Part shown: positions 3,500 through 38,544 of the stretch, one piece after another
Layout of the letters: every line of letters starts with the position of its first letter
Numbering within the stretch: the stretch's first letter is position 1
Virus record (IMG/VR): IMGVR_UViG_3300010412_000038
Coordinates: 1 to 38,544 of that record
DNA: 38,544 nucleotides
Strand: one strand, 5' to 3'
Origin: a virus
Position numbers and translations under genes: made by a program
The notes under the pieces: model-generated
What the model was told of the DNA's origin: nothing
Databases searched by the model: none
Seen by the model: the letters and a program-made list of their open reading frames with translations, nothing else

Positions 3500-3903
3500 T
3501 GGGCTCTCCGCAATTTACCCAGTCGGCTGATCACACTGGTCCGGGTGCGGCAGTCCCTGATCCTGTCTTTGTGCTGATCCATAACGATGTCTGCCAGATA
3601 CGTCAGGCGGGCCTCTGGGTTGAGCTTCAGCAGCTTGAGCAGAAGCTCGTCTTCGCTCTGGGTATATCTGGGCCCCCGCTTGACCTTGCCGACTTTCTTT
3701 GCGGGCTTGGTGCCGCCGTTGCCCAGCGGATTCTTGCTCCAGATGATGTCGGGGCGATAGGCGGTATCAACATGCTCGTAAACACTAACGACCGCTTTGC
3801 CCTTGGAGTCCTCCACCAGTTCCTTGGCATAGAACTTGGCGCGGCCCTTGGCGCAGGAGTCCATGACGATCTTGCCGTCTGAAATGATGATGTACCGCTT
3901 CAT
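3496..3903 (-). CDS. Unknown protein with C-terminal helix-turn-helix-like segment
   Basis: The 135-residue protein has a beta-rich N-terminal half (about 1-55), a basic linker K-P-A-K-K-V-G-K-V-K-R-G (about 67-78), and a C-terminal helical region with R-Y-T-Q-S-E-D-E-L-L-L-K-L-L (about 80-93) that looks Myb/SANT-like. It could contact DNA between the exonuclease and annealing protein, between which it is encoded. No family assignment is secure. It overlaps both neighbours by four bases, so expression is coupled. Confidence 0.65.
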   Translation of the reverse strand: MKRYIIISDGKIVMDSCAKGRAKFYAKELVEDSKGKAVVSVYEHVDTAYRPDIIWSKNPLGNGGTKPAKKVGKVKRGPRYTQSEDELLLKLLKLNPEARLTYLADIVMDQHKDRIRDCRTRTSVISRLGKLRRAQ

Positions 3904-4487
3904 GATTTCTCTCCCTTCAGCATCTTGTAGGCTTGCGAATACTTCTCTTGCGAGAGGTCATCCAGCTTGTCGATGCCAGCCCACTTCATGAACTTGACCT
4001 CATCATGATCGGCCAGCAGTTTCTTCAGCTGTTGCAGCTGCAGATCGGTAATGGGCTTGCTCCATTGACCAACCGGGACCGTCGAGCCAGCGTCCCACAG
4101 GGACAGGCCCAGACCGGCGAAGGCCAGAGCCTTGACCAGAGCCCGCTGACGGTTGTCATTGATGTCCCGGGCGTTGGGGTTGCTGATGGCATTGAAGCGG
4201 TTATCCATCACCGCCAGTCGGGCGCAGGTGAAGACAGACTCTTCCGGGTCTCCGCCGCCTTTGGTGATGGTGACATGAACCTCGACCTCCATCGTACCGT
4301 CAGCAAAGACAACGTCTTCGCCATGGCGATAGGTGGACGCCGGGTAGTGGCGTTTCAGCAACAGCCATGCCTTGTGCCATGGCACATACGACAGGGATTT
4401 GGACTGACTGATGCTGATGGACTCGACATGCGGAGCAACGTCGATATTGGACAGGGTGTCCCAAACTTCTTGCGAAAACTGGTTCAT
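3900..4487 (-). CDS. Single-strand annealing protein, Sak3/DUF1071-like
   Basis: The 195-residue protein contains L-S-Y-V-P-W-H-K-A-W-L-L-L-K-R-H-Y-P at about residues 32-49, the signature of the DUF1071/Sak3 group of Rad52-like annealing proteins, followed by a beta-rich core and R-Q-R-A-L-V-K-A-L-A-F-A-G-L-G-L. Such proteins coat ssDNA and pair complementary strands, working with the YqaJ exonuclease in the same operon. It is the first gene of the leftward operon, with an AGAGGAG ribosome site that is a near variant of the shared early leader. It faces the XRE regulator across a 97-bp control region. Confidence 0.75.
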   Translation of the reverse strand: MNQFSQEVWDTLSNIDVAPHVESISISQSKSLSYVPWHKAWLLLKRHYPASTYRHGEDVVFADGTMEVEVHVTITKGGGDPEESVFTCARLAVMDNRFNAISNPNARDINDNRQRALVKALAFAGLGLSLWDAGSTVPVGQWSKPITDLQLQQLKKLLADHDEVKFMKWAGIDKLDDLSQEKYSQAYKMLKGEKS

Positions 4488-4584
4488 TGCAAATCTCCTC
4501 TGTTACAGGGTAAGTCTACCATAGTCAGCTGGCTACAGCAAGTTCCTTGTGATAAGCTATAGACAGCAACGGAGGTCAGAAAAA
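4488..4584. promoter_or_regulatory. Divergent control region with palindromic operator candidate
   Basis: This short gap separates the annealing-protein operon from the XRE regulator. It holds an imperfect 14-bp palindrome TAGTCAGCTGGCTA (4522-4535, one mismatched pair) and, for the + strand, an extended -10-like TG-T-GATAAG at 4548-4556 whose -35 zone would overlap the palindrome. That arrangement suits an operator for the regulator. Promoter calls by eye are weak. Confidence 0.4.
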
Positions 4585-4830
4585 ATGTATACGCCTAAAG
4601 ATGTACCGGGTCAGACGTACTCCAACAGGGTGCGTCGGAATGTCGCCCGAATCATGAGAAGTCGAGGAATGCCGGGGTCTGGCGGACTCCCGCACATGAC
4701 TTCTGCTGGTCTGTATAAATTCATGACTGGCCGGGTGGACATGACGATCACCCGGGTCCAGATGATCGCTGACGATCTGGGTGTCTCGGTCAACGAGTTA
4801 CTACAATACTGTCCTGACGATCAGGATTGA
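4585..4830 (+). CDS. XRE/Cro-type helix-turn-helix regulator
   Basis: The 81-residue protein fits a small Cro/CI-type DNA-binding domain: helix V-R-R-N-V-A-R-I-M-R (about 16-25), then M-T-S-A-G-L-Y-K-F-M-T-G-R (about 38-50) as turn and recognition helix, and V-Q-M-I-A-D-D-L-G-V-S-V-N-E-L-L (about 58-73). The start at 4585 has GGAGG eleven bases upstream; a longer frame from 4549 lacks a site. It lies divergent to the recombination operon with a palindrome between them, so it probably controls that promoter and its own. No integrase was found, so it need not be a prophage repressor. Confidence 0.75.
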   Translation: MYTPKDVPGQTYSNRVRRNVARIMRSRGMPGSGGLPHMTSAGLYKFMTGRVDMTITRVQMIADDLGVSVNELLQYCPDDQD

Positions 4831-5132
4831 TGGTCAGGCGCATCGCGAAAGTGGATGCGAATCAACGAGATATTGTTGACGCACTGAAAAAAATAGGCTG
4901 TAGTGTCACTAGTTTACATACCGTAGGCAGTGGTTGCCCTGATCTTTTGGTTGGATACCGGGGCATCAACCACCTGTTGGAGGTGAAAAATGTACGGGGA
5001 CGCAACAAGCACACAGACCTACAGAAAGACTGGTTTGCCCAATGGAAAGGCGCAGCACCCGTCACTGTCAGAAATCCAGAGGAAGCAATTCTGGCTGTAT
5101 CAGGACCAGCGCATGGGTCGGCTGATTCGTAA
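4830..5132 (+). CDS. VRR-NUC-like nuclease
   Basis: The 100-residue protein shows the compact VRR-NUC pattern: V-D-A-N-Q near residue 8, G-C-P-D-L-L-V-G at about 35-42 with the metal-binding Asp, E-V-K at about 51-53, and a following Gln (about 65). Phage members are thought to act as structure-specific nucleases, for example on branched DNA. The ATG overlaps the regulator stop (TGATG) and the gene is followed by another nuclease-like gene, so this + strand trio looks like a small recombination and regulation unit. Confidence 0.75.
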   Translation: MVRRIAKVDANQRDIVDALKKIGCSVTSLHTVGSGCPDLLVGYRGINHLLEVKNVRGRNKHTDLQKDWFAQWKGAAPVTVRNPEEAILAVSGPAHGSADS

Positions 5133-5415
5133 CGCTGCCCGGGGGCAGAACTGCTCGTTGCGCCTGCCGGGTTGTAAAAACGACACCTCGACGGTGGTGT
5201 TTGCTCATGCCCCATCGATAGACAACGGCATGGGGCTGAAGCAGGCCAAGGACTTCTGGGGTGCCTTCGCCTGCTCCAACTGCCATGATGTGGTTGATGG
5301 CCGGGTCTCTACCAGCGACCAGCGAGTGCTGATTCTGGAGCGCTGGCTCGCCGGTATTTACGAGACCCAGAAGAAGCTCATTGAAGCAGGTCTGATCCGT
5401 TACTCTGAGCGATAG
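5113..5415 (+). CDS. DUF1364 protein, putative HNH-like nuclease
   Basis: The 100-residue protein begins M-G-R-L-I-R-N-A-A-R-G-Q-N-C-S-L-R-L-P-G-C, a hallmark of DUF1364, and continues with A-H-A (His about 32) and A-C-S-N-C-H-D-V-V-D-G-R (Cys 54, Cys 57, His 58), giving a likely zinc site as in HNH-type nucleases. DUF1364 genes occur among lambda-type nin-region recombination genes. A longer start at 4990 would overlap the VRR-NUC gene by over 140 bases in another frame, so 5113, with AGGA upstream, is preferred. Its end overlaps the convergent gene on the other strand by 38 bases. Confidence 0.75.
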   Translation: MGRLIRNAARGQNCSLRLPGCKNDTSTVVFAHAPSIDNGMGLKQAKDFWGAFACSNCHDVVDGRVSTSDQRVLILERWLAGIYETQKKLIEAGLIRYSER

Positions 5416-5650
5416 AGTAGTCGATCATCTTGACCTTTTCCGTCGCCCACCAGAGCCGGTGATCGGTTTCCTGAATCTGCAGTAGCTTGCGGTCTATTTC
5501 CCGCAGAAGTTGTCGGGCCCGGTTGATGTTGTGCGCTTGCGGGTCCGGCGCTTCTGCCAGCTGCATGACGCTGCGGAGACACTGGTCGATGTCATCGTAC
5601 AGGCGGTCCAGCCTGCCCTGTTCAATCCTTTGCTCTTCATGGGCATTCAT
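5378..5650 (-). CDS. Small helical unknown protein
   Basis: The 90-residue product is charged and almost wholly helical (E-E-Q-R-I-E-Q-G-R-L-D-R-L-Y-D-D-I-D-Q, then R-A-R-Q-L-L-R-E-I-D-R-K-L-L-Q-I-Q), probably a short coiled coil. It overlaps the NinB-like gene by four bases at its start and overlaps the convergent DUF1364 gene at its end. No family is recognised. Confidence 0.65.
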   Translation of the reverse strand: MNAHEEQRIEQGRLDRLYDDIDQCLRSVMQLAEAPDPQAHNINRARQLLREIDRKLLQIQETDHRLWWATEKVKMIDYSIAQSNGSDLLQ

Positions 5651-6033
5651 GTTATTTCCTCGTTAGGTCTGGGCACCGTAATACCCAGAGTGTTAGCAGC
5701 CCAGCTTTCAATCCATTCCAGAAACCAGCTGAACTCTTTACGGGTGAGTTCGGACGAGCGCTTCATCGGGCGTTGGACAGAGTGCCCAAACACCTCGCTG
5801 TCTTTCCAGCCAAACGCCTCGCCCAGCAGGTACTCTTTCATTTCTTCCAGAGTGTACCCCGTTTCTTCAGACAGGATGCGCAGCGGCACCGCATGAAGAA
5901 ACGCATTCTGATCCAGAGACCGCCTCGGTGAATACACCTCAAGGCGCATCACCGAAGGCGGCTCCAGACGCAGGTGGCGAATCTCGTTTAAGGCCATGTT
6001 GCGCAAGTCTTCATTACGAATAACGATTTGCAT
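5647..6033 (-). CDS. NinB-like recombination protein
   Basis: The 128-residue protein has the NinB/Orf hallmark S-P-R-R-S-L-D-Q-N-A-F-L-H-A at about residues 35-48. Lambda Orf (NinB) helps load recombination proteins onto SSB-coated DNA; an equivalent job is inferred. The start at 6033 is fixed by the shared leader AGAGGAGAATCG just upstream; a longer frame to 6153 runs through the upstream gene and is unlikely. It overlaps the end of the PD-(D/E)XK gene by 20 bases. Confidence 0.7.
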   Translation of the reverse strand: MQIVIRNEDLRNMALNEIRHLRLEPPSVMRLEVYSPRRSLDQNAFLHAVPLRILSEETGYTLEEMKEYLLGEAFGWKDSEVFGHSVQRPMKRSSELTRKEFSWFLEWIESWAANTLGITVPRPNEEIT

Positions 6034-6583
6034 TACGATTCTCCTCTTCATAATCCATGACCCATTGATGCAGCGACTGGTCGGGCCAGAAAAACGCATC
6101 TTTGGGGTCGGGTGTATACCAAGGGCGCATGGTCGCCGGGTCGAAAAACACATGTCGCTTAGTCAGGTCGAACTCACCACCCTCGGGGTGTCGCTCCTTG
6201 CCGGTAAACAGCTTGGTCTCAATCGGGTCGGACATAACGTCATGCCAGACCCAGACGTCTTTCAAGGCACAAACCAACAGGACCGGTCGCTTGTTGCGCT
6301 CGCCGCCTTCCTTGAGCCCCATGTACTTGTACTCTGGGATGACCAAGCCACCCTCCCGCTCCATGAAGGACCGGGTGAATCGCTGGCGGCATTTGATTTC
6401 AAGATAGGCTACGATTTCATCATCGCACTCGCGCATCAATGCGACGTCGGGAACCACCCGGCCCTTGACCTCTTTGATCTTGCGACCATAGACCGGAAGC
6501 TCCCGCCGCTCGTTGTAGTAGCACATGAACTCCAGTGCTACCCGGGCTTCGCGAATGGCGTCTTCTCTCTCTGGTCTAGCCAT
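6014..6583 (-). CDS. PD-(D/E)XK nuclease-like protein
   Basis: The protein of about 189 residues contains V-V-P-D-V-A-L-M (Asp about 46) followed by V-A-Y-L-E-I-K (Glu about 62, Lys about 64), the spacing of a PD-(D/E)XK nuclease core. The rest is charged and rich in aromatic residues, with no other domain recognised. It directly follows the helicase gene (TGATG overlap), so helicase and nuclease may work together on replication or recombination intermediates. An alternative GTG start lies one codon upstream. Confidence 0.6.
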   Translation of the reverse strand: MARPEREDAIREARVALEFMCYYNERRELPVYGRKIKEVKGRVVPDVALMRECDDEIVAYLEIKCRQRFTRSFMEREGGLVIPEYKYMGLKEGGERNKRPVLLVCALKDVWVWHDVMSDPIETKLFTGKERHPEGGEFDLTKRHVFFDPATMRPWYTPDPKDAFFWPDQSLHQWVMDYEEENRNANRYS

Positions 6584-8013
6584 CACTGTCGCCTCTTGGC
6601 GTACCGGATGTCCCGGTGCTTGATCCAGTTGCGAAGCTCAGTGGAGGGTGCTGCCTGCCGCTCGACCATCTTGCGGGGCCAGACCCCGAAGATGTCCCGG
6701 TAGGTGTGTGCGACCCATCCATGACGGCGACCTTTCTCATCTGCAATGGCGAGTAACTGGGAGTATACATCCTGCTTCTCGACCATGCTGTTGCGGGCCA
6801 GCTTTCGTAATGAGCCTTCCCGCTCCTCGATCTGGTGCGGTTGGCGCGGCTGGAATCCGCAGGTAGGGCAGACCCCGGTGCCGGGTTGTACAACGGTCGT
6901 ACACTGAGGGCAGGTCCATGGGGTTGGCTCTTCCGGGTCGCGTCGATCAATGCTGCTGACACCCTTTTCCCTGTCGCACATCTGGGTCGGAAGTGGGTCA
7001 TCAGGAAATCCCAACCGGCCAATGTTACCGGCATGGTCTAGGATGATGGCCTTGTCCTTGCCGGGTGCGGTTCGGAGCAGGCGACCCAGCATCTGAATGT
7101 GCAGACTGAGGCTACGGGTTGGTCTGGCTACAATTCCTACCTCGATGTCAGGTTGGTCGTAACCTTTGATCAACACTTCGCAGTTGAACAGGCACTGAAT
7201 TTCGCCAGAGCGATACCTCTGAAAAACATCGAGACGTCGCTCATCAGAATCCTTGCCGCAGACGTAATCGGAAGGGATGCCGTTGGCGTTGAACAGCTCC
7301 GCCAAATGCTCGGCGTAACGGACGGTCGGGGTAAAGCCTATGGTCTTCTTGCCAATGCCATGTTTCCTGAAGTGAGTCAGGATGTCACCGGTAATGAACC
7401 CCATACGCTCTTCCAGATCGGTTACGTTGTAGTCGCCGTTGGAGTGGCGGACGCCGCGCAAGTCTGGCTGCGAAGGGCCGTATGCAACAAAGTTCGACAG
7501 GTACCCGTCCAGCATCAGCTGCTCCGTCGTTGCGCCAACGACCAGAGTTTCCCAGTGCCTGCCCAGCCCCCGGGTGAACGGGGTAGCGGACAGGCCCAGA
7601 AACTTGACCAGCCCCCATTTCTCCATCACTGTCGAAACAATACCGTAATGGGTATGCGCTTCATCAATGATGAACAGATTGGCTGGTGGCCAATGACGGC
7701 GCGGACGTCGCTGCAGGGTCTGAAGTGAAACCACCTGCACCGGCAGTTCGGGTCGATACAATGGGTGGTTTGACTGCACCACTGAAACCGGAATACCGGC
7801 ATCGATGAACTTGTCGATGGTCTGATCCAGCAGGGTCAGGCGGTCAACACAAAAGTTAATGCGCCGGTTATGCTTGAGGCCCTGTTTGATGACCTCGATG
7901 GCGATATGTGTTTTGCCAGACCCGGTGGGCAGCTGCAACATGACGCGGTTCGACTCGCGCAGTGCGGCATAGGTGTTGGCAATAGCGTCTCGCTGGTAGG
8001 GTCTAAGGGGCAT
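6583..8013 (-). CDS. DEAH-box superfamily 2 helicase
   Basis: The 476-residue protein has the full SF2 set: Q-motif region L-R-P-Y-Q-R-D-A at the start, Walker A P-T-G-S-G-K-T (about 29-35), D-E-A-H (about 117-120), S-A-T (about 142-144), and motif VI Q-M-L-G-R-L-L-R (about 307-314). A C-terminal zinc ribbon follows with Cys at about 368, 371, 382 and 385. This resembles phage and host helicases of the RadD/UvsW type that unwind branched DNA. It has a GAGGAGG ribosome site and overlaps the small gene before it by 11 bases. As the only helicase in the window and without a phage polymerase, it likely supports recombination-driven replication. Confidence 0.9.
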   Translation of the reverse strand: MPLRPYQRDAIANTYAALRESNRVMLQLPTGSGKTHIAIEVIKQGLKHNRRINFCVDRLTLLDQTIDKFIDAGIPVSVVQSNHPLYRPELPVQVVSLQTLQRRPRRHWPPANLFIIDEAHTHYGIVSTVMEKWGLVKFLGLSATPFTRGLGRHWETLVVGATTEQLMLDGYLSNFVAYGPSQPDLRGVRHSNGDYNVTDLEERMGFITGDILTHFRKHGIGKKTIGFTPTVRYAEHLAELFNANGIPSDYVCGKDSDERRLDVFQRYRSGEIQCLFNCEVLIKGYDQPDIEVGIVARPTRSLSLHIQMLGRLLRTAPGKDKAIILDHAGNIGRLGFPDDPLPTQMCDREKGVSSIDRRDPEEPTPWTCPQCTTVVQPGTGVCPTCGFQPRQPHQIEEREGSLRKLARNSMVEKQDVYSQLLAIADEKGRRHGWVAHTYRDIFGVWPRKMVERQAAPSTELRNWIKHRDIRYAKRRQ

Positions 8014-8155
8014 CGGAATCCTCCTCGCCCAGCACCTTGGCCTGAATGTCAGCCGGTACGTTCAGCAGGAACATTTCGAAGTTCTCAGACAGGTTGACGA
8101 TCTGCCAGTGCCCACAGGCTTTCGCCCATTGTATGAACTTTTCATACTTTTCCAT
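8003..8155 (-). CDS. Small unknown protein in front of the helicase
   Basis: The 50-residue product starts M-E-K-Y-E-K-F-I-Q-W-A-K and ends in an acidic tail. The start at 8155 is set by an exact shared leader (AGAGGAGAATCG) seven bases upstream of the core end. It overlaps the helicase start by 11 bases and may serve to couple helicase translation. No family is recognised. Confidence 0.7.
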   Translation of the reverse strand: MEKYEKFIQWAKACGHWQIVNLSENFEMFLLNVPADIQAKVLGEEDSDAP

Positions 8156-8189
8156 TTCGATTCTCCTCTGGTGGTAAAAAACAATAGCA
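8156..8189 (-). promoter_or_regulatory. Shared leader plus extended -10 promoter candidate for helicase operon
   Basis: On the minus strand the core AGAGGAGAATCG occupies 8169-8158. Upstream, TG-C-TATTGT (8189-8181) could be an extended -10, giving a start near 8174 and a very short leader. Unlike its sister copies this one lacks the small hairpin directly before the leader. Confidence 0.4.
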
Positions 8190-8352
8190 GTCAATTAAGA
8201 CGGGTTGTACCCCCGCACTTGCGTTCGCTGGCTGTTGTCGGCTGACCTGTATCGTCAGGCCCAGACGCCCCGGGCTTCCGCCCATCGCTGACTCTACTGT
8301 TACTCGGCGCGAAGTCAGGCCGCGCTAAACTTTACGCTGGTACAATGCTGCC
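8190..8352. other. Gene-free stretch with hairpins and a + strand promoter candidate
   Basis: No credible coding frame is seen. It contains short inverted repeats such as GGGC/GCCC around a TTCC loop and CTGAC/GTCAG. At 8338-8346 the + strand has an extended -10-like TG-G-TACAAT, which would start an RNA near 8353. Confidence 0.4.
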
Positions 8353-8505
8353 GTTTTGATCCGCCGTCTTGAAGCGGAACCAGCTAGGTGGGTATGCGTC
8401 ACCACCTCGCGACAGTGACCACACACAGACACAGGAAATACGCGCAAATAGCAGGAAATGCGCGGAAAGCTGGACAAAGCCAGCGGTAGGAGTGTATTCT
8501 TGTGT

Positions 8506-8521
8506 TGTGAGTGCTATCACA
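8506..8521. promoter_or_regulatory. Perfect CRP-consensus-like palindrome
   Basis: TGTGA-N6-TCACA matches the core of the enterobacterial CRP site exactly. It may bind a host CRP/Vfr-type regulator, or may only be one hairpin of the surrounding structured region. Confidence 0.3.
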
Positions 8522-8565
8522 CTTTAACCGTACTCGATGATCCCCCTGTTCGTCAAGTGCGGTTG

Positions 8566-8604
8566 AAAACCCCGGTTTCCTAGCAGAGTCGGGGTTTTCT
8601 TTTG
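8566..8604 (+). terminator. Intrinsic terminator
   Basis: A perfect 9-bp stem AAAACCCCG/CGGGGTTTT with a 15-base loop is followed by CTTTT on the + strand. Confidence 0.6.
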
Positions 8605-8613
8605 TCTGAAATA

Positions 8614-8622
8614 TGCTATTCT
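8614..8622 (+). promoter_or_regulatory. Extended -10 promoter candidate for the short RNA
   Basis: TG-C-TATTCT fits an extended -10 element. It would start transcription near 8629, just before a small hairpin and 50-70 bases ahead of the next + strand terminator. No convincing -35 is visible. Confidence 0.35.
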
Positions 8623-8628
8623 GAAAGT

Positions 8629-8708
8629 GGCAATAGTGCCATCCTTGGAAGCGCAAGAAGCAGATTCTCCTCTGCTGGAGAGCCCCCCATAACGGGGGGC
8701 TTTCTTTT
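8629..8708 (+). ncRNA. Candidate small RNA with anti-leader loop, about 80 nt
   Basis: The unit contains hairpin TGGCA/TGCCA (8628-8641), hairpin AGCAGA 8659-8664 / TCTGCT 8671-8676 with loop TTCTCC, and terminator AGCCCCCC 8681-8688 / GGGGGGCT 8694-8701 with a T-rich tail. Bases 8663-8674 are the exact complement of CAGAGGAGAATC, the ribosome-site leader shared by the early genes. It could be a trans-acting repressor RNA. On the other strand the same bases read as hairpin plus leader without a gene, so an empty leader cassette is the main alternative. Confidence 0.4.
8681..8708 (+). terminator. Strong intrinsic terminator
   Basis: An 8-bp GC-rich stem with loop ATAAC is followed on the + strand by TTTCTTTT. 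The minus strand side has no T-run, so the orientation is rightward even though no + strand gene precedes it. Confidence 0.75.
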
Positions 8709-8716
8709 GGGTAAGT

Positions 8717-8778
8717 GCCTGCCCGGAACCAAGATGACCTGAGCCATCGGGCAGGCGAGAGGAATGGCTCAGGGTTCC
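8717..8778 (-). other. Pseudoknot-capable structure on a stop codon
   Basis: Two perfect helices interleave: 8717-8725 with 8748-8756 (9 bp) and 8738-8747 with 8764-8773 (10 bp), in the order A5, B5, A3, B3 that defines an H-type pseudoknot. A third pairing GGAAC/GTTCC (8725-8729 with 8774-8778) could extend helix B. The stop codon of the small membrane gene (8769-8771) lies inside helix B. Confidence 0.5.
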
Positions 8779-8867
8779 AGCATAATCAGGGTGGCCCAGA
8801 TCATTGCCCAGCAGGCGAACAGTACAGCCCAGCCCAGCAACTCGCGCAGCAGTTCACCGATCTTCAT
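8769..8867 (-). CDS. 32-residue single-span membrane protein
   Basis: This tiny product has an amphipathic start (M-K-I-G-E-L-L-R-E-L-L) and one membrane segment of about residues 11-29 rich in W, A, L and I. The start at 8867 has a variant of the shared leader (GAGGAGATTCGC), in which the ribosome site lies in the loop of a short GCGA/TCGC hairpin. It overlaps the zinc-protein gene by 14 bases. The role is unknown; small phage membrane proteins of this type often alter host membranes or lysis timing. Confidence 0.6.
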   Translation of the reverse strand: MKIGELLRELLGWAVLFACWAMIWATLIMLEP

Positions 8868-9063
8868 TGCGAATCTCCTCGCGCAGCAGGCCACCTTCAC
8901 CACAGGCTTTGCAGCCATACCAGCCATAACCTTCCAGCCAGTTGCTGCCGCGCCCGCCGCAGCGAGGACACTTGACGATGCGGTAACGATGTCCGGGTGC
9001 GGGTTGCTCTTGGGCAAGCTCGCGCTGTTGCTCCCAGTATTCGTCATTCTGTTTGAGGCTCAT
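8854..9063 (-). CDS. Small zinc-finger protein, DnaJ-type motif
   Basis: The 69-residue protein contains C-P-R-C-G-G-R-G (Cys 32 and 35) and G-C-K-A-C-G-E-G-G (Cys 51 and 54), a paired CXXCG pattern like the DnaJ cysteine-rich zinc site. Such small proteins usually bind nucleic acid or protein partners; no partner can be named. The start ATG overlaps the previous stop by four bases. Confidence 0.7.
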   Translation of the reverse strand: MSLKQNDEYWEQQRELAQEQPAPGHRYRIVKCPRCGGRGSNWLEGYGWYGCKACGEGGLLREEIRNEDR

Positions 9064-9302
9064 GACAACCCCCGCAGGAGCGAGCGCTCCTTACAGCGGT
9101 GCAGCACAAAGCCCCGGGTCTGACGATGGCTGAGAATCCCAGCCACTGCTTTCTGAGAGACCAGCAGCTCCCGATTGAGCGCATAGGTCATAGGGTCCAG
9201 CTGATTAAACTCAACCATTTTCCACCAATGTTGGCGGGCAGCGTCCCGGTCGATGGAGACATACTGCAGGTTGGTCATCAGGTGGTGCAGTTTGTTTCTC
9301 AT
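9060..9302 (-). CDS. Small unknown basic protein
   Basis: The 80-residue product is rich in R, H, Q and W (D-A-A-R-Q-H-W-W-K-M-V) and has a basic tail; no family is recognised. Its start at 9302 follows an exact AGAGGAGAATCG leader and a small hairpin. It is coupled to the zinc-finger gene. Confidence 0.65.
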   Translation of the reverse strand: MRNKLHHLMTNLQYVSIDRDAARQHWWKMVEFNQLDPMTYALNRELLVSQKAVAGILSHRQTRGFVLHRCKERSLLRGLS

Positions 9303-9304
9303 TA

Positions 9305-9366
9305 CGATTCTCCTCTGGAAATGAGAGCGAAGTGCCCTCAGTCTAACCCCCTCCCTCCAGAGGGGG
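9305..9366 (-). promoter_or_regulatory. Leader cassette: two hairpins plus shared ribosome site
   Basis: In minus-strand order: stem CCCCCTC/GAGGGGG (9347-9353/9360-9366), small stem GAGAGC/GCCCTC with one wobble pair (9323-9328/9334-9339, 5-base loop), six bases, then AGAGGAGAATCG (9316-9305) and the start codon at 9302. Confidence 0.6.
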
Positions 9367-9380
9367 CTAGGTCAGGGTAC

Positions 9381-10139
9381 TTACGCAGCGATAGCTCGCG
9401 CAGGTATGAAGTTGGCCTGCTGGTCGCAGAGTGCCTGCAGGCCCATGGCGCGTTGGGGCAGTTCCTGAATGTTCATGCCCTTGTACGCCTCAGTCACCGC
9501 ATTGAACAGCCGCCAGACGGTGCGGTCGCCATGTTCGTAGGACGGTTCGTCCCACTCATTGACCACCTTTTCCACCCGGCTGGTGTTGATGACGCCTTCG
9601 CGCAACATGCGCAGGATCAGGTGATCAGCGTCCCGGTCGATCAGGCGCGTTTCGCGATAGGTTTCGAAACGAGCATCCTGTACGCCCTTGAACACATGCA
9701 CCTTTTCCATGGCAGCGTAGACCAGATTCGGCAGGTCTTTCAGGATGTAGGCGGTATGCTTGCGCTTGATTACGATTTCTCCGCCGAAGCAGAGATTCGC
9801 GCACACAAACACCTGCGACCCGAAGGCCAGACCGGCGGGAAAGCGCTTGTCGAGACTGTTGCGCAGGCCCAGCATCAGAGCGTAATCTGAATTAGGGGCC
9901 CCGTCGCGCAGTTCGACAACGCCAAAGTACCGCTTGCCGTCATGGCTCAGACCATGGTGCTGCTGACCGAAAACGAAGCCCAGATCGCGAGCGCTGTCTT
10001 CGGCAATGTCCAGCAGGTCGATGTGGCTGATCGGCTGGTATGTGTCGGTTGCCGGGGGCAGCTCGACGCCAATCAGTTCATGACGCTGTACGTCGTCGCA
10101 CTTGTACGCAGCCAGTGACATTACATGTGGGTTTGCCAT
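9381..10139 (-). CDS. DUF932-like protein
   Basis: The 252-residue protein carries the core pattern of DUF932 proteins: Y-A-L-M-L-G-L-R-N-S-L-D-K (about 86-98), G-L-A-F-G-S-Q-V-F-V-C-A-N-L-C-F-G-G (about 103-120) and R-K-H-T (about 126-129). DUF932 proteins are common in phages and plasmids and their function is not settled. The start at 10139 is fixed by an exact shared leader; the longer frame to 10211 crosses hairpins and is rejected. It is the largest gene of this cassette-type early region. Confidence 0.7.
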   Translation of the reverse strand: MANPHVMSLAAYKCDDVQRHELIGVELPPATDTYQPISHIDLLDIAEDSARDLGFVFGQQHHGLSHDGKRYFGVVELRDGAPNSDYALMLGLRNSLDKRFPAGLAFGSQVFVCANLCFGGEIVIKRKHTAYILKDLPNLVYAAMEKVHVFKGVQDARFETYRETRLIDRDADHLILRMLREGVINTSRVEKVVNEWDEPSYEHGDRTVWRLFNAVTEAYKGMNIQELPQRAMGLQALCDQQANFIPARAIAA

Positions 10140-10141
10140 TA

Positions 10142-10199
10142 CGATTCTCCTCTTGAGATACGGTGTCGAAAGTAACACCGGGTTGCCCCCGAAGGGGCA
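10142..10199 (-). promoter_or_regulatory. Leader cassette: two hairpins plus shared ribosome site
   Basis: In minus-strand order: TGCCCC/GGGGCA (10184-10189/10194-10199) closed by a TTCG tetraloop, then CGGTGT/ACACCG (10161-10166/10175-10180), then AGAGGAGAATCG (10153-10142) and the start at 10139. Confidence 0.65.
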
Positions 10200-10214
10200 G
10201 ACCGCTATCACCTC

Positions 10215-10580
10215 CTAGCCTGAGCCATGTCCGTCGCAGCGAATGTCATGCGGGTGGTCCGGCTTGTCCGGGTCCAGCAGGTCCATCTGGCCAGCGTCAG
10301 CCGCTGCCTTGGCGTACTCCTCGGCCTGTTTGGCCTCAGTTTCTTCCAGCTTGTGCTTGACCCAGCCGACATGGGCCGAGATAGCCCCGTCCCAGAACCC
10401 GTATTCGCGCTTCACTTCGCCATAGTCCCAGATCAGGTCCATGACGGTGCTGAACAGGTCGCTGTCGTACTTTTCGCCCAAGCTCAGTTTGCTGACGGCT
10501 TTGCAAATCTTGCCGTAGACAGACAGTTGGGTGTCATGGACGGTGCGCTGGTGCTGCATACGTTTCAGAATGTCGCTCAT
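10215..10580 (-). CDS. Unknown helical early protein
   Basis: The 121-residue protein is largely helical and charged, with W-D-Y-G-E-V-K-R-E-Y-G-F-W-D and a C-terminal E-E-T-E-A-K-Q-A-E-E-Y-A-K-A-A-A-D stretch, ending D-G-H-G-S-G. No family is recognised. It starts at 10580 behind an exact shared leader and a 6-bp hairpin. The C-terminal region is low in order and may be flexible. Confidence 0.7.
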   Translation of the reverse strand: MSDILKRMQHQRTVHDTQLSVYGKICKAVSKLSLGEKYDSDLFSTVMDLIWDYGEVKREYGFWDGAISAHVGWVKHKLEETEAKQAEEYAKAAADAGQMDLLDPDKPDHPHDIRCDGHGSG

Positions 10581-10582
10581 TT

Positions 10583-10650
10583 CGATTCTCCTCTAGTGGT
10601 AACGTACCTCGATGGTACGGTGTAGCCCTCTCAGAAGGTGAGAAGGCTAC
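10583..10650 (-). promoter_or_regulatory. Leader cassette: two hairpins plus shared ribosome site
   Basis: In minus-strand order: a long stem GTAGCC/GGCTAC (10622-10627/10645-10650) with inner TCTCA/TGAGA, a small stem CGTACC/GGTACG (10603-10608/10614-10619), then AGAGGAGAATCG (10594-10583). Confidence 0.65.
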
Positions 10651-10659
10651 GCCCTAACA

Positions 10660-10905
10660 TCAGATACCCCAATCCTTGCGGTCGCCAAAGCGCTCGGCCA
10701 GTTCGTACCCGGCCCAGTAGGCTCGACGCTCTTCGTCGGTCAGGTCAGTGACCCGCTCGCCATTGCCGGTACCTTCCGGCCACTTGTGCGGGTCTGGCTT
10801 GCGCCAGTAGTAATAATCGGCACCGCCCCGGTCAAAGGGCCCGCCATGGTAGGTGTACTTTGCCCACTTGGACGTAATGGCGTCATATTCGCTTGCACTG
10901 ATCAT
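10660..10905 (-). CDS. Unknown Tyr/Trp-rich early protein
   Basis: The 81-residue protein contains G-G-A-D-Y-Y-Y-W-R-K-P-D and D-E-E-R-R-A-Y-W-A-G-Y-E-L-A-E-R-F-G-D-R. No family is recognised. The start at 10905 follows an exact shared leader and hairpin, giving good support that it is expressed. It may bind a host protein, as many small early phage proteins do, but that is speculation. Confidence 0.7.
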   Translation of the reverse strand: MISASEYDAITSKWAKYTYHGGPFDRGGADYYYWRKPDPHKWPEGTGNGERVTDLTDEERRAYWAGYELAERFGDRKDWGI

Positions 10906-10907
10906 TT

Positions 10908-10964
10908 CGATTCTCCTCTGGTAATCAAGGCGAGATGCCTTGCAGTAGGGCCTCCTGACCCTAC
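10908..10964 (-). promoter_or_regulatory. Leader cassette: two hairpins plus shared ribosome site
   Basis: In minus-strand order: GTAGGG/CCCTAC (10945-10950/10959-10964), CAAGGC/GCCTTG with a 5-base loop (10926-10931/10937-10942), then AGAGGAGAATCG (10919-10908) ahead of the start at 10905. Confidence 0.65.
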
Positions 10965-10986
10965 GTCAAAGCGACTCAGGTGATCT

Positions 10987-11166
10987 TCACAACAGCAGCC
11001 CGTTGTCGCCATAGTTGCGAGCAATGTATGCCTCGGTTTCGGCGTCGGCTTCCTGCTCATAGGCCAGAGCCGGGTCATCGTATTCGGCATACGGGTCGTA
11101 CCCGGGTGGCGACAGGCGCGTCGGGCGGAAGGGTGAATGTGATCCGTTTGAACGGTTGTCACTCAT
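10987..11166 (-). CDS. Small acidic unknown protein
   Basis: The 59-residue protein starts M-S-D-N-R-S-N-G and has a proline/arginine-rich first half and an acidic helix A-L-A-Y-E-Q-E-A-D-A-E-T-E-A-Y. The start at 11166 is fixed by the shared leader; the longer frame to 11250 runs through the leader itself. It is the first gene of the leftward early block, next to the large structured gene-free region. Confidence 0.65.
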   Translation of the reverse strand: MSDNRSNGSHSPFRPTRLSPPGYDPYAEYDDPALAYEQEADAETEAYIARNYGDNGLLL

Positions 11167-11168
11167 TG

Positions 11169-11200
11169 CGATTCTCCTCTGGTTGCTGCAAAGGCGCAGC
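11169..11200 (-). promoter_or_regulatory. Leader cassette with one hairpin
   Basis: Small stem GCTGC/GCAGC (11185-11189/11196-11200, 6-base loop) directly precedes AGAGGAGAATCG (11180-11169) in minus-strand order. Confidence 0.55.
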
Positions 11201-11664
11201 GTAAAGCGCTCAGGGTGGCGACCATGGTCTGCGTAGGGGTTATTCGCCATTCGCAGTCGCCGGGTTTACCCGGGGCCTCTCACCCGGTGCCCTGAACGCT
11301 TAACGCTACACCCTCGAAAGGGTGCAACGCAGAGGGAGAAAGAATCGGCGGTGTTGTACACCGCTTCCCCCATCGTTGCCCGTCGCATAGACCGGGCCCG
11401 GTTTGGATCGGTATTCCGGGCGGATCATTGGGACTACCGCTTCCCGCATTCGGGCCAGTCCATCGGCCCGGGGCTCCCCCGGCACTTCCGCCTTCCGCCG
11501 GGGGTTCGTCACCCCACTGAGACCAGTGTACCACCGTACGCTGGTGATTGCAAATCCAGTTCAAATCCAGATTTGCAGCCACCTCGACGGGTCGCGGGAA
11601 CCCGCATGGCGCAACGCATACGCGCACATGAGGCGAGCCCCGGAACGGGGCGGAAAACGAAGTG

Positions 11665-11694
11665 TTTGCAATTCGCAGCGTAGGGGAGTACACT
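11665..11694 (+). promoter_or_regulatory. Weak promoter candidate inside the structured region
   Basis: TTTGCA (11665-11670), an 18-base spacer and TACACT (11689-11694) could start a + strand RNA near 11701, just at the two-tier hairpin beginning at 11698. Confidence 0.2.
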
Positions 11695-12137
11695 GTCCTT
11701 GGTGGGAGAGAAATCCCCCGGGTCGCCAAGCCAAGACCCTGAACCGGCCAAGCTAAGACGGTAGGCAAAGCGCCCAAAGAATTACATGGGAGCGGAGCGA
11801 AAGCCCCGGAACACCGAAAGGTTAAAGCGCTTCGCCGGAGAACCGGCGGCGGAACCCCCTCTGGCAGATGCAGGCCGGAGACCCGGGAGGCCCTTGGCAG
11901 CGGAACATACAGGCATCGACGAAATCGTATCAGCGATTCCCTACCCCAGCGGCAACGCCATTCGGCGGAGCAGTGACGGACGGGCAACGCATACGGAACC
12001 GGGCGCATACTGCGCTGAGACCTCCCCCAGAGTACCGGCTAGGCGGGAACGGGGGCTGCAGACCAGCGAGGGCGACCGGGGCCATTGCGGAACCCTGAAG
12101 ACCTGACCCGGCGGACGGTGGAGACAGATCAGCCCGG

Positions 12138-12195
12138 ACGGCAGACAACGGCATGGCCTAGCACATGCCAGCGGATGCCTGAACGGCAGACAACG
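12138..12195 (+). repeat. Short direct repeats near the 3-prime end of the structured region
   Basis: ACGGCAGACAACG occurs at 12138-12150 and 12183-12195. Nearby, ACCCGGCGGAC occurs at 12106-12116 and 12198-12208, and GCCATTGCGG at 12081-12090 and 12235-12244. The cluster of repeats hints at a duplicated module. Confidence 0.7.
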
Positions 12196-12242
12196 TCACC
12201 CGGCGGACCTCAGAGCGTAGCAGCCATGGCCAGAGCCATTGC

Positions 12243-12278
12243 GGTGCGCTTTGCACCTGTCGCAACAGAGGAGAATCG
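12243..12278 (+). promoter_or_regulatory. Leader cassette on the + strand
   Basis: Hairpin GGTGC/GCACC (12243-12247/12253-12257, loop GCTTT), nine bases, then AGAGGAGAATCG (12267-12278) directly before the ATG at 12281. It is the only + strand copy of the leader used by the leftward early genes. Confidence 0.65.
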
Positions 12279-12280
12279 AC

Positions 12281-12478
12281 ATGATGGCAGCACTGTACAA
12301 GACGAAGAAAGCGCTGAAAGAGAGCATTGGCGAGCCCCTGCGGTATCGGGAAACGTCACTGTTTGGCCCAGAGTACCGGGCGGACGGCAGCTTCTGCGTA
12401 GTCGGTCCTGACGCATACCAGCGCAAGTGGTTTGCTCAGGTGACCATGGCGGACGGCAAAATCGCCAAGGTCAGCTAA
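12281..12478 (+). CDS. Small unknown protein with early-type leader
   Basis: The 65-residue protein starts M-M-A-A-L-Y-K-T-K-K and contains F-G-P-E-Y-R-A-D-G-S-F-C-V-V-G-P-D and K-W-F-A-Q-V-T-M-A-D-G, suggesting a small beta-rich fold. No family is recognised. The start at 12281 has the exact shared leader. It is likely an early gene read rightward from, or co-transcribed with, the structured region. A hairpin pair follows it. Confidence 0.7.
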   Translation: MMAALYKTKKALKESIGEPLRYRETSLFGPEYRADGSFCVVGPDAYQRKWFAQVTMADGKIAKVS

Positions 12479-28587: not shown

Positions 28588-30216
28588 ATGGAAAGATGGG
28601 TTGACGGTGTACGGCAGATTTTCATAGCTGGTATTGGCTGGAGAGACGCCGTAAATCAGTACCCTGAGCCTTCAGGAGAAGATGCCGCTGACGATTCCGG
28701 TGGCGGCTCCAGTAGCTCTGGTGGTGACGGCGGCGGTTCCAGTGGTTCAGGATCAGGATCGGGATCAGGATCGGGATCAGGATCGGGATCGGGATCGGGA
28801 TCGGGATCGGAAGAGTTTAATCTCAGAAATTATCTGGAAAGCCAATACGGTGTTTCCGGCCCCATCATAACCTCCACCCGGTTTGGCCGAACAATCGTAA
28901 ACACCAATAGGGGTGTATTCATTCTTGGAGACGACGGTCGTCCGACTGGCGGACCCATGACAATGGAGCAGTGGCAACAGCAGGCAGATGAGTGGCAGGT
29001 TGAAAAAAATCTGGCCAAGCTGTCTGAGGTTAATGCAACGGGGTACTACGATTGGGACAAAGGCAAGTACATCGTTACTGACGCTCAAGGACAAAAGTAC
29101 GAAACAGATCACTTTTACGGCAGCGGGGCATGGGCTGATTGGTGGGAAGCCGCTGGTTTACCATTGAACCCTTCAAACCCTTGGTATGGCGACGAGGAAA
29201 ACCCGGGCCCTTTAACAGTAACGCCGGAGTATCCCGATGGGGGTCCAATGCCGGGTGGGACCACCCCTCCTCCCGGTGGAGGAGATGACGGGACTCCGGC
29301 GGAGCCACCTCCACCCCCGATGACGCCAAACATGCCGCCCCCTCCGGGCGGAGACGATTGGTACGACAACATTACTCCCGGTGGGCCCCCGGCTGGTCCA
29401 TCTGCGCCCAACCCGGGCAATACTCCGGGCACCGACGCGGACGGAATGCCTGACTGGTGGGGCAATGGAACGGGTGGCGAAAATGGACAGGGCATGTTTG
29501 GGCAGGTACCGGGTGTTCCGATACCGGGCTTTCAGACACAAAACCCAAACTCGTTTTCGCCGTATGGCCAGCCAGTGTCGCCAATGAGCAATCAGGCTTG
29601 GTTTGGTGGCCTGCCTCGCAGCGTTGGTCCATGGGGCGAAATGGGTGGATACTATGGCGGAAATCCGTACACAGAACCGCCGGAAGGGTATAACCCGGGA
29701 ATGCCGTATCCGACACCGGGGCCTTGGGATATTACCGGTGGCCTGACTCCGCCCCCTCAGTGGCCATATTACGAACTGCCGCCTAATCCGTATCCGCCAG
29801 CAGGTGGTGGAATCCCCGGTGACGATACTGGTGGTGGCGATACTGGTGGTGGCGATACTGGTGGTGGCGATAGCGGGGCCATTTTTGATCCCAGCTTGTA
29901 TCCACCCGGGTCATTTGACAGCAGCAATATCCCACCGGGTTTCAACTACAAAGGCTACATAACTTATTGGGGTTTGGGCAACGATTGGCGCATTGGAGAC
30001 CCACCTCCGGCTGATGGCGGAGGCGGCGGTGGTGGCGGCGGTGGTGGCGGCGGTGGTGGCGGCGGCGAACAGCCCAACCGACCGCATTCTTATACCAACC
30101 CGGTCGCTCAGGCTTGGGCTGGTGCGCAACCCGGTACGCCAGCGACGAACCCGCAACAGATGCAGTACCTGCAAGCCGCTTATTTGAACGGCACATTGGG
30201 CAAGGTAACCAGCTGA
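28588..30216 (+). CDS. Gly/Ser/Pro-rich protein with three in-frame microrepeats
   Basis: The 542-residue protein has a short N-terminal segment, a (G-S)n tract (about residues 53-74), a more ordered Trp-rich part (about 75-205), then long Pro/Gly linkers, a G-G-G-D-T repeat (about 412-428), a poly-Gly run of about 17 and a short C-terminus. Tandem DNA repeats encode the tracts. The composition suggests an extended, flexible virion protein. The gene overlaps the next start (TGATG). Confidence 0.7.
   Translation: MERWVDGVRQIFIAGIGWRDAVNQYPEPSGEDAADDSGGGSSSSGGDGGGSSGSGSGSGSGSGSGSGSGSGSGSEEFNLRNYLESQYGVSGPIITSTRFGRTIVNTNRGVFILGDDGRPTGGPMTMEQWQQQADEWQVEKNLAKLSEVNATGYYDWDKGKYIVTDAQGQKYETDHFYGSGAWADWWEAAGLPLNPSNPWYGDEENPGPLTVTPEYPDGGPMPGGTTPPPGGGDDGTPAEPPPPPMTPNMPPPPGGDDWYDNITPGGPPAGPSAPNPGNTPGTDADGMPDWWGNGTGGENGQGMFGQVPGVPIPGFQTQNPNSFSPYGQPVSPMSNQAWFGGLPRSVGPWGEMGGYYGGNPYTEPPEGYNPGMPYPTPGPWDITGGLTPPPQWPYYELPPNPYPPAGGGIPGDDTGGGDTGGGDTGGGDSGAIFDPSLYPPGSFDSSNIPPGFNYKGYITYWGLGNDWRIGDPPPADGGGGGGGGGGGGGGGGGEQPNRPHSYTNPVAQAWAGAQPGTPATNPQQMQYLQAAYLNGTLGKVTS
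28746..28810 (+). repeat. Hexamer microsatellite (GGATCA/GGATCG)n
   Basis: About eleven copies of a 6-base unit encode alternating Gly-Ser. A change in copy number keeps the frame, so it would alter tract length only. Confidence 0.85.
29824..29871 (+). repeat. 15-base tandem repeat (GGGDT)
   Basis: About three copies of a 15-base unit encode Gly-Gly-Gly-Asp-Thr. Confidence 0.8.
30016..30066 (+). repeat. Poly-glycine codon run
   Basis: GGC and GGT codons alternate for about 17 glycines. It can vary by slippage without a frameshift. Confidence 0.8.
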
Positions 30217-36126: not shown

Positions 36127-38544
36127 TGGCATTTAATTCCCGCTGGTGGTTTACAGGTGGCGAAGATGGTATCGGCTATTACGATATCTACGACTACACT
36201 GGAAATTTAAGCGCAACCAGTACAGGGCTTCGTACCGGCGCTTTAGGTAACTATGCGTTAGCTGTTGGTACAGCCCAGACCACTGTCCGGTGGGACACCA
36301 GTATTTTTCCATCAGGTGGTCAGAATGCCCATATTCGCTTGTGGGCGAAAATGGACACCACTTTTTCCGATGCGTTTCGCGTTTTTTCGGAAATTACGTC
36401 AACCGGCAATACAATAGGGCTGCATTTCAATGCTAATGACGACAGCATTGACCTGTACGATAATTCAGGATTAAACACTTCAAGCAGTACCAGTGTCTGG
36501 CCCAGCGACGGCACATGGTTTGAAATCTATGCCATTCTCCCGTATGCCGCCACCGCATCCGGCACCGCCAAGGTGTACATTGATGGCACTGAAGTTATCA
36601 GTGTCACTGATTTTAATCTCGGCGCAAATAATATGCGGTGGCTTGGACTTCAGGTGCAAGCCGGTGCTGGAACCCTGTATGCAGACGACATTATCAAGGG
36701 GATTGGCTCCACCTCTAGCGATACCTCGTATGTAAGCGCCGATATTCATGTCGTTCAATACCGCTCTACGTTAGCAAGCTCCACTGGCGATTTTGGCGGA
36801 TGCACTCTTACATCCGGGAACTGGTCAGACAATCAGAACATACCGTTTGGTGGCGGCAACACCTTTATGGCGAGTACCACCGGGTCGGCCACCTCAAACG
36901 ATTACAGTGGTGTCATCACCAACGATGCGGGTGGGGCGGACGGCAGTGGCGGACCCAGCGGGGATTCGTATGTAAGTAACACCTACAGTCTGTTATCCCA
37001 CAGGTACATGTTTCGGGGTAACAGGACCAATGGCTCTAGCCCAACGTCCTATGGGCTGAACGCAGGTAGTTACGATTCGTCATATGCCAATGTTGAGGCT
37101 ATCGACGGTGGCACACTAACCACTTCGCTTGGTCAGTATTTTGTCGATGCGGCAAGTGACTCTACCAATGCTCCGACAAGCTCAACCTTTGGCGCGTTAG
37201 GTTATTACCATACCGATGATGGCGGTCGCGATATACAAATGGCCGACTTCATGTATATGACGACGTTGGAGGTCGTCTCTACAGGTAATACGCTTTCCGC
37301 TAACGCAGGATCATACACACTCACTGGCGCTGCCGCTGATTTTGACGTCGGGATGGACGCCAATTCCGGGTCTTATTCCTATACTGGATCGGCAGCAAAC
37401 TTCAATCTGGGCGTAACTCTCGCCGCCGAAGCGGGTAGCTACACCTATACAGGATCGGCAGCAGAGTTTGCCAATGGCTGGGCAATACCAGCAGAGGCCG
37501 GATCGTATACCCTGACAGGATCGGCAGCTGACTTCGACGTCAGCATGGAAGCCGAAGCCGGAAGTTACACCTATACCGGCAGCGCAGCGGATTTTGCGTT
37601 GAGCAAGAGCCTGATGGCAGAAGCTGGCAGTTACGCCGTCACCGGGTCTGCTGTCGATTTTTACAATGGGTACGCCATTGCTGCCGAAGCGGGCTCATAC
37701 GCCTACACTGGGTCTGCCGTTGAGTTTCCCAGCGACGTCACCCTGTCAGCCGATGCCGGATCATATACCCTCACCGGCAGTGACGCTGACCTGCTTGGTC
37801 AATTCTATCTAGGAACATCAGTCACCGGAACTGAAACGGCGTACTTTGCCGACTGGACAGAAGACCCCACCAAGGGCTGGCTCAACGATCAAAATGCTGC
37901 GGACGGCAATACAAACACATATGCCTACACCACCAGCGAAGGCAACTGGGATGCGGATTATGCAGTAAGCTCCAATCCGTTGCCTGCGGCACCTTGGCTG
38001 AAAACCCTATGGCTTGATCAGGCTATACCGCCAGCCAATGGCGAAGCAACGCACATCTCAAAGGTCAGGTATCGGGCCAAGATTCAGGTAACGGGTACTG
38101 GCACCCCGCAGATGCAGGTGTCGGTGATTGACCGAATGTCGTTTGGCATTGGGGGCAACCGGTACGTTACCCTACAGCAGGACTTGTTCACACAAGCCAC
38201 TGCTAACTTCACTGCTTGGACGGAGATAACGCCGCCTCCGGGTGGTTGGCCGGACTACCTGTCGGGGTGGCCGGGAGACGGTGGGGGGTTGATCCGTCTG
38301 ATTTTTGCCGGAAAGGACGACACCGGCACCCTGACTGAAGCGCGTTTGTATTATGCCGAGCTGGAGTTTACCTACTCTGACGCCAGTTACCGGCTAGCTC
38401 TTGACCTGCCAAACGTCATTCAATCCTACCCTGATGCGGCGGCGGAAGCGGGTAGCTACACACTCACCGGTTCTGACGCGGACTTCAGCGTCGGCCTGAC
38501 CATGCCCGCTGAGTCGGGGTCTTATTCCGTAACAGGATCAGCAG
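36126..38544 (+). CDS. Large repeat-rich tail protein, N-terminal part (continues at 1-897)
   Basis: The frame is open to the window end and joins 1-897 through the terminal redundancy, giving about 979 residues. The first 230 residues form a laminin-G/concanavalin-like beta-sandwich (S-R-W-W-F-T-G-G-E-D-G, A-H-I-R-L-W-A-K-M-D, A-K-V-Y-I-D-G-T). A second beta-rich part follows, then eight repeats of E-A-G-S-Y-x-x-T-G-S-x-A-x-F (about residues 393-555). A unique Trp-rich domain (about 560-760) separates these from nine more repeats. The layout suggests carbohydrate binding at both folded regions, linked by repeat rods. The start overlaps the previous stop. Confidence 0.8.
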   Translation, partial: MAFNSRWWFTGGEDGIGYYDIYDYTGNLSATSTGLRTGALGNYALAVGTAQTTVRWDTSIFPSGGQNAHIRLWAKMDTTFSDAFRVFSEITSTGNTIGLHFNANDDSIDLYDNSGLNTSSSTSVWPSDGTWFEIYAILPYAATASGTAKVYIDGTEVISVTDFNLGANNMRWLGLQVQAGAGTLYADDIIKGIGSTSSDTSYVSADIHVVQYRSTLASSTGDFGGCTLTSGNWSDNQNIPFGGGNTFMASTTGSATSNDYSGVITNDAGGADGSGGPSGDSYVSNTYSLLSHRYMFRGNRTNGSSPTSYGLNAGSYDSSYANVEAIDGGTLTTSLGQYFVDAASDSTNAPTSSTFGALGYYHTDDGGRDIQMADFMYMTTLEVVSTGNTLSANAGSYTLTGAAADFDVGMDANSGSYSYTGSAANFNLGVTLAAEAGSYTYTGSAAEFANGWAIPAEAGSYTLTGSAADFDVSMEAEAGSYTYTGSAADFALSKSLMAEAGSYAVTGSAVDFYNGYAIAAEAGSYAYTGSAVEFPSDVTLSADAGSYTLTGSDADLLGQFYLGTSVTGTETAYFADWTEDPTKGWLNDQNAADGNTNTYAYTTSEGNWDADYAVSSNPLPAAPWLKTLWLDQAIPPANGEATHISKVRYRAKIQVTGTGTPQMQVSVIDRMSFGIGGNRYVTLQQDLFTQATANFTAWTEITPPPGGWPDYLSGWPGDGGGLIRLIFAGKDDTGTLTEARLYYAELEFTYSDASYRLALDLPNVIQSYPDAAAEAGSYTLTGSDADFSVGLTMPAESGSYSVTGSA
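37302..37790 (+). repeat. First array of AGSY repeats (8 units)
   Basis: Eight coding units of about 60-66 bases encode (E/N/D)-(A/S)-G-S-Y-x-x-T-G-(S/A)-x-A-x-(F/L). Nine related units lie at 276-870 and two at 34675-34800. Confidence 0.85.
38169..38544. repeat. Right copy of terminal redundancy
   Basis: This matches 1-376 with six silent substitutions and continues the same gene in the same frame. Confidence 0.9.

Follow-up and report, generated by a model that had tools for sequence, protein, structure and literature searches.

The sar RNA of phage P22 is a small phage RNA whose loops are complementary to a ribosome-binding region, and it blocks translation. Xanthomonas sX13 and the alphaproteobacterial 'cuckoo' RNAs are bacterial small RNAs with C-rich anti-Shine-Dalgarno loops, and in phage T7 the RNase III sites are intercistronic hairpins between early genes. 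According to a review, the c4 RNA of phages P1 and P7 acts on the ant mRNA and blocks its translation (PMC12197685). In the Cluster K mycobacteriophages, the accessible parts of two papers describe SAS, a 13-base repeat before non-structural genes that consists of AGGAG plus conserved bases unpaired with the rRNA (PMC3203893; PMC12699233). SAS was described in 2011, the 2025 paper still asks for experimental verification of its role, and in those parts no RNA partner is proposed for it (PMC3203893; PMC12699233). Here we describe a 12-base leader, AGAGGAGAATCG, that stands before eight early genes of the IMG/VR phage record IMGVR_UViG_3300010412_000038, together with a complement of this leader in the predicted loop of an RNA hairpin. 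The window is the whole phage record (38,544 nucleotides).

The leader occurs in exactly eight exact copies in the window, seven on the minus strand and one on the plus strand, and on both strands each copy is followed by two nucleotides and then ATG. A simple calculation puts the chance expectation for any given 12-mer at about 0.005 exact copies over both strands of the window. All 12 leader columns are identical in the eight copies and the flanking columns are near background, with the exception of the A before ATG (7 of 8). The exact copies all lie within 6036-12278, and the structural genes hold none. The leader contains the Shine-Dalgarno core GGAG plus AATCG, and the latter is unexplained by pairing with the 3' end of 16S rRNA. 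The copies and the genes behind them are as follows.

6036-6047, minus strand: exact leader of gene 5647-6033 (NinB-like)
8158-8169, minus strand: exact leader of gene 8003-8155 (orphan)
9305-9316, minus strand: exact leader of gene 9060-9302 (orphan)
10142-10153, minus strand: exact leader of gene 9381-10139 (DUF932)
10583-10594, minus strand: exact leader of gene 10215-10580 (orphan)
10908-10919, minus strand: exact leader of gene 10660-10905 (orphan)
11169-11180, minus strand: exact leader of gene 10987-11166 (orphan)
12267-12278, plus strand: exact leader of gene 12281-12478 (phrog_37117, unknown function)
4490-4501, minus strand: variant leader with two mismatches, before the Sak-like annealing protein gene 3900-4487
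8870-8881, minus strand: variant leader with two mismatches, before the small open reading frame 8769-8867

The original prediction, made from the sequence alone, had placed eight identical leaders directly before their start codons; the eight copies are present, and they stand two nucleotides away from ATG. The variants that it had claimed before the genes starting at 4487 and 8867 were both found, with two mismatches each. Its idea of a reusable translation cassette agrees with the fixed distance to ATG on both strands and with the Shine-Dalgarno core. The copy at 12267-12278 lies on the opposite strand with the same spacing, which indicates that the element tracks the start codon and not the DNA strand; a role in the messenger RNA is therefore favoured. 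The genes behind the exact leaders showed no clear paralogy (best pair, E 0.35). The best reading of the leader is a start-associated extended ribosome-binding site that unites eight early genes, or ten with the variants, as a translational regulon.

The sole one-mismatch match to the leader in the window, which the original prediction did not mention, lies in non-coding DNA at 8662-8673 on the minus strand, and no ATG follows it at the usual spacing. The plus strand there reads GATTCTCCTCT, in which 8663-8673 form an 11-nucleotide perfect complement of all eight exact leaders; in five of the eight a preceding C extends the complement to 12 nucleotides. The core UUCUCC forms the apical loop on a 6-bp stem, with a predicted unpaired probability of 1.0, and a terminator-like hairpin comes immediately after it. 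Scoring as a terminator was obtained on the plus strand only (site 8683-8699, inside the stem at 8677-8708). The region 8609-8717 folds with a z score of -4.7, and none of 200 shuffles folded as well.

8659-8676, plus strand: anti-leader hairpin AGCAGA-TTCTCC-TCTGCT, with a 6-bp stem and the complement at 8663-8673
8677-8708, plus strand: terminator-like 12-bp hairpin with a T-tract
8614-8622, plus strand: possible extended -10 element TGC-TATTCT for an anti-leader RNA, read by eye and missed by the consensus scan

The copy at 8662-8673 was also considered as the leader of an 85-codon open reading frame with a TTG start (8399-8656). This assignment was rejected: the frame scores as non-coding, and the spacing would be 5 nucleotides plus TTG versus 2 nucleotides plus ATG. 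Its codon usage scored -0.333 log2 odds per codon, whereas the minimum among 69 coding segments was -0.050. Seven exact-leader genes scored +0.13 to +0.43; the eighth, 9381-10139, belonged to the training set. The frame is possibly a decayed gene.

The reversed copy at 8662-8673 suggests that an RNA regulates in trans. We consider the chances about even that a candidate anti-leader small RNA masks the Shine-Dalgarno sequences of all eight genes in trans. Such an RNA would be transcribed rightward through about 8629-8708 and would display UUCUCC in its apical loop. The first contact would be UUCUCC with GGAGAA, after which the short stem would open and the pairing would grow to 11 bp with AGAGGAGAAUC of each leader, a step in the cell for which a chaperone may be needed. 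The pairing would cover the Shine-Dalgarno sequence, block 30S binding and thereby lower the translation of the early genes jointly. Its use would probably be early shut-off; the record yielded neither a tyrosine integrase (PF00589) nor a large serine recombinase (PF07508), so that early shut-off in a lytic cycle seems likelier than immunity. Through the leader that they have in common, all early genes would be within reach of one RNA, and, if the proposal is true, a single RNA locus switches translation of the entire early gene set.

The hairpin resembles c4-type antisense RNA in that the loop of a small phage RNA would be complementary to a ribosome-binding region (here an 11-nucleotide complement in a predicted unpaired loop). 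In contrast to c4, a single loop here fits eight separate genes by way of the leader that they repeat, and there is no Rfam C4 match; no Rfam family was found at the gathering threshold, and the 17 weak matches to 8150-8780 did not include C4. With sX13 and the 'cuckoo' RNAs it shares a C/U-rich apical loop that could pair with purine-rich ribosome-binding sites. Those RNAs act on host genes with varied sites, whereas the targets here lie in the genome of the same phage and all carry one 12-mer.

The closest parallel to the leader is SAS. Both are exact sequences of 12-13 bases with a Shine-Dalgarno core and invariant non-pairing bases, located a few bases before many non-structural genes; both have inverted repeats upstream of roughly half of their sites and one reversed copy away from gene starts. 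The leader is, like SAS, an asymmetric start-associated repeat of about 13 bases with a Shine-Dalgarno core and occurs only in the non-structural region of the genome. The phage groups differ, and AGAGGAGAATCG fails the SAS consensus, GGGATAGGAGCCC, so the leader works like SAS but is not a member. The extended elements called ESAS are 17-base inverted repeats with a shared consensus, whereas the stems here differ in sequence yet pair. In the available part of their paper, the 2011 authors report little support for mRNA hairpins at ESAS (PMC3203893).

In the Cluster K phage Adephagia, the right half of the genome has 15 SAS-like sites in one direction and one in the opposite direction (two mismatches or fewer), and the examined left part has only a forward copy, at 29744, which is also covered by the right part. 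Very strong hairpins are found in the gp92-gp93 gap at 58,447-58,878, and the second of them carries the reversed SAS, CCUCCUAUCC, as its 10-base apical loop; positions 28600-28740 of this stretch (L163) fold with a z score of -6.6. We examined 18 Cluster K records of the 177 that matched the gp92-gp93 gap. The anti-SAS loop is kept in six (Adephagia, CrimD, Stinson, Anaya, LastHope, and SgtBeansprout). Another six (Cain, Phrank, Unicorn, Amgine, Shandong1, and TClif) have a hairpin there too, but its C/U-rich loop does not correspond to SAS, and the remaining six (Yuna, MacnCheese, Keshu, MarkPhew, KiSi, and Chris) have other structures. In the six keepers the stem contains one or two G-U pairs on the plus strand, which are mismatches on the other strand, indicating a plus-strand RNA; two of the six also carry one plus-strand mismatch. 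The terminator side is less clear in Cluster K than in the window.

A number of results weigh against the anti-leader proposal. In Cluster K, 12 of the 18 records are without the anti-SAS loop at that place. Two of the four repeated-leader phages that we met have no anti-leader. In Tunturiibacter phage Tunturi_1 (L159 and L226), TCTGGGAGGATTC or close variants stand before several small genes, and no reversed copy was found in non-coding DNA, with all but about 1.1 kb covered. In G002, a portal relative (the contig of L092), CAGCACCGGGGAGG or close variants precede six early genes at 9077-10972 on the minus strand, where the repeat also covers the end of upstream genes; neither a complement of at least 10 nucleotides elsewhere nor a reversed copy in non-coding DNA was found. 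The shuffle test on the window counts for the proposal, with an 11-nucleotide match to the leader in 6 of 2000 shuffles of the phage's non-coding DNA, but it was devised after the match had been seen. The duplex energies between the hairpin region and the eight leaders, -20.6 to -29.8 kcal/mol, also speak in its favour, although they ignore folding within each partner and 3 of 34 starts without the leader, chosen by us as likely genes, fell within the same range. The final G in the leader never varies, yet the candidate RNA would leave it unpaired. The consensus scan gave no promoter-like site with a -35 element for this RNA, and promoter-like sites in the region were not above shuffles (3 versus a mean of 3.9). 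Searches for relatives with the terminase, the DUF932 gene, the portal, the helicase, gene 10215-10580, and the Sak-like gene as queries found none with the leader, including portal relatives of up to 54% identity.

The Cluster K records thus support an anti-leader in one subgroup but argue against it as a rule for SAS at large. It follows that phages make recurrent use of repeated leaders, and that only some of these come with a candidate RNA whose loop matches. We tentatively suggest, as a possibility less likely than not, that phages stamp one exact leader before many early genes and encode one RNA with a matching loop, that in at least one subgroup SAS follows this design, and that the reversed SAS copy is the anti-leader RNA of that subgroup. 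If this is true, searching for reversed leader copies in hairpin loops would reveal more such regulons. No publication on an anti-SAS or anti-leader RNA was found in the searched literature, which mostly excludes subscription papers.

The scan of related phages for the leader that the original prediction had recommended yielded no relative with this leader. One copy with one mismatch was present in 3 of 24 records, and one of the three had been included for a hairpin-like match and not as a portal relative. The exact leader plus ATG occurred in 54 viral stretches, once in each, which we take to be background; L039, one of these stretches, also contains the shorter AGGAGAATCG at two more sites. 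Among 369 whole genomes from a single proteobacterial class, 9 had leader plus ATG, once each; the class was chosen on the basis of the one bacterial portal relative that matched well, and it is not known to include the host. The anti-leader hairpin pattern was found in 10 viral stretches, none of which had repeated leaders, and the DNA at 8440-8730 gave short weak matches only, in 4 of the 369 genomes. Multi-copy use of the leader is therefore particular to this phage within the searchable data, in collections that may omit records very close to the window.

The original prediction had also described shape-conserved hairpins before the leaders and had taken their sequence differences as compensatory. 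All six stems that it named are present. A 5-6 bp stem by itself is frequent in shuffles, and the best-stem P values were 0.04 (before 10139), 0.06 (10580), 0.04 (10905), 0.20 (11166), and 0.34 (12281); the proximal stem before 9302 needs a G-U pair and was not recovered as a Watson-Crick stem. Structure is clearest in four consecutive intergenic gaps of 75-81 nucleotides, in each of which two hairpins separate the stop codon from the leader. The 75-nucleotide upstream regions of 9302, 10139, 10580, and 10905 fold with z scores of -3.7, -2.7, -6.3, and -3.3, respectively, with 0, 2, 0, and 0 of 200 shuffles folding as well.

9303-9380, minus strand: gap with tandem hairpins 9344-9369 and 9323-9339, from fold versus shuffles
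10140-10214, minus strand: gap with tandem hairpins 10184-10199 and 10161-10180, from fold versus shuffles
10581-10659, minus strand: gap with tandem hairpins 10622-10650 and 10603-10619, from fold versus shuffles
10906-10986, minus strand: gap with tandem hairpins 10945-10964 and 10926-10942, from fold versus shuffles
11185-11200, minus strand: weak stem before the leader of 11166, not above shuffles
12243-12257, plus strand: weak stem before the leader of 12281

Upstream folds were intermediate for 12281, 4487, and 6033 (3, 12, and 15 of 200 shuffles as good, respectively), and no 75-nucleotide upstream structure above shuffles was found for 11166, 8155, and 8867 (42, 61, and 91 of 200). The hairpin claim therefore stands for the existence of the six stems and for the four well-folded gaps but not for the remaining leaders, which are weak or unstructured, so that a hairpin is not part of every cassette. 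The argument from compensatory differences is not sustained: the gaps are not homologous copies, so the differing stems show a recurring structure and not covariation, and no relative with the leader was found for comparison. The tandem hairpins constitute a separate intercistronic layer that may serve insulation, stability, or processing. They were also considered as minus-strand terminators, and this found no support, as the scan gave only weak minus-strand sites in the region (e.g., 10192-10178).

The leader might instead be a strong standard ribosome-binding site spread by recombination at gene boundaries as a linker cassette, with 8662-8673 as the dead leader of a lost gene and its hairpin due to chance. 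The repeated leaders without a detectable anti-leader in G002 (six genes) and Tunturi_1 show that such repeats exist, and 8662-8673, read on the minus strand, has a hairpin upstream of it, as other copies do. However, the open reading frame behind it is non-coding, it is the only copy located in a 6-bp stem that exposes the core as a loop, the T-tract of the adjacent hairpin is on the plus strand, and the invariant AATCG exceeds what Shine-Dalgarno pairing needs. We regard this explanation as rather unlikely.

Processing of the RNase III type, in which the early intergenic hairpins would be cut and each leader left at a fresh 5' end, appears improbable. The locus resembles the T7 sites in having hairpins between early genes; the four consecutive gaps form strong irregular stems that few or no shuffles match, and the scan windows over them on the minus strand reach z scores from -3.8 to -6.4 (-4.6, -4.1, -6.4, and -3.8 for 9302, 10139, 10580, and 10905). 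On the other hand, only some of the genes have hairpins (8155, 8867, and 11166 lack structure above shuffles, and 4487 and 6033 have little), the invariant element is the 12-mer and not the stem, and many coding windows are as extreme as the four gaps in the same scan, in which 1.4% of 5130 windows reach a z score of -3.5. Recognition of the leader by a phage protein is a further alternative. T4 RegA is a translational repressor, and T4 RegB cuts GGAG in early mRNAs; the leader has GGAG and marks early genes, several of which are small and without a known family. Nevertheless, no RegA or RegB family was named among the early proteins scanned, and an RNA-binding protein or endoribonuclease would leave the reversed copy in the hairpin loop unexplained, so that we consider this slightly more improbable still than processing.

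Upstream of the anti-leader hairpin lies a second candidate small-RNA unit, for which no 10-nucleotide complement at phage gene starts stood out. It gave a full-length match, at 8494-8611 on the plus strand, to the Pseudomonas ErsA / Pseudomon-1 RNA (RF01719), with 25.5 bits, below the gathering score of 50.

8471-8603, plus strand: second candidate small-RNA unit, with a promoter-like site at 8471-8500, a hairpin at 8526-8564, and a terminator-like hairpin at 8565-8603

The portal, major head, and terminase genes are on the plus strand, and the portal is Mx8-like, with 41.8% identity to that of Mx8. The early block on the minus strand encodes a Sak-like annealing protein, a RecE-like exonuclease, NinB, a helicase, the DUF932 protein, and orphans. 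The ends of the record, which is classed as linear, are a 376-base direct repeat with six mismatches (1-376 and 38169-38544), and given this terminal repeat the phage genome may be complete. Between the divergent leader genes, the 1.1-kb gap at 11167-12280 has no coding-like open reading frame (scores of 0 or below) and no useful Rfam match, and it shows strong local structure near 11506-11595; it is possibly an origin or a non-coding RNA. The 65-residue product of 12281-12478 is 80% identical to a Tunturiibacter phage protein, a far closer match than those of the other early proteins searched.

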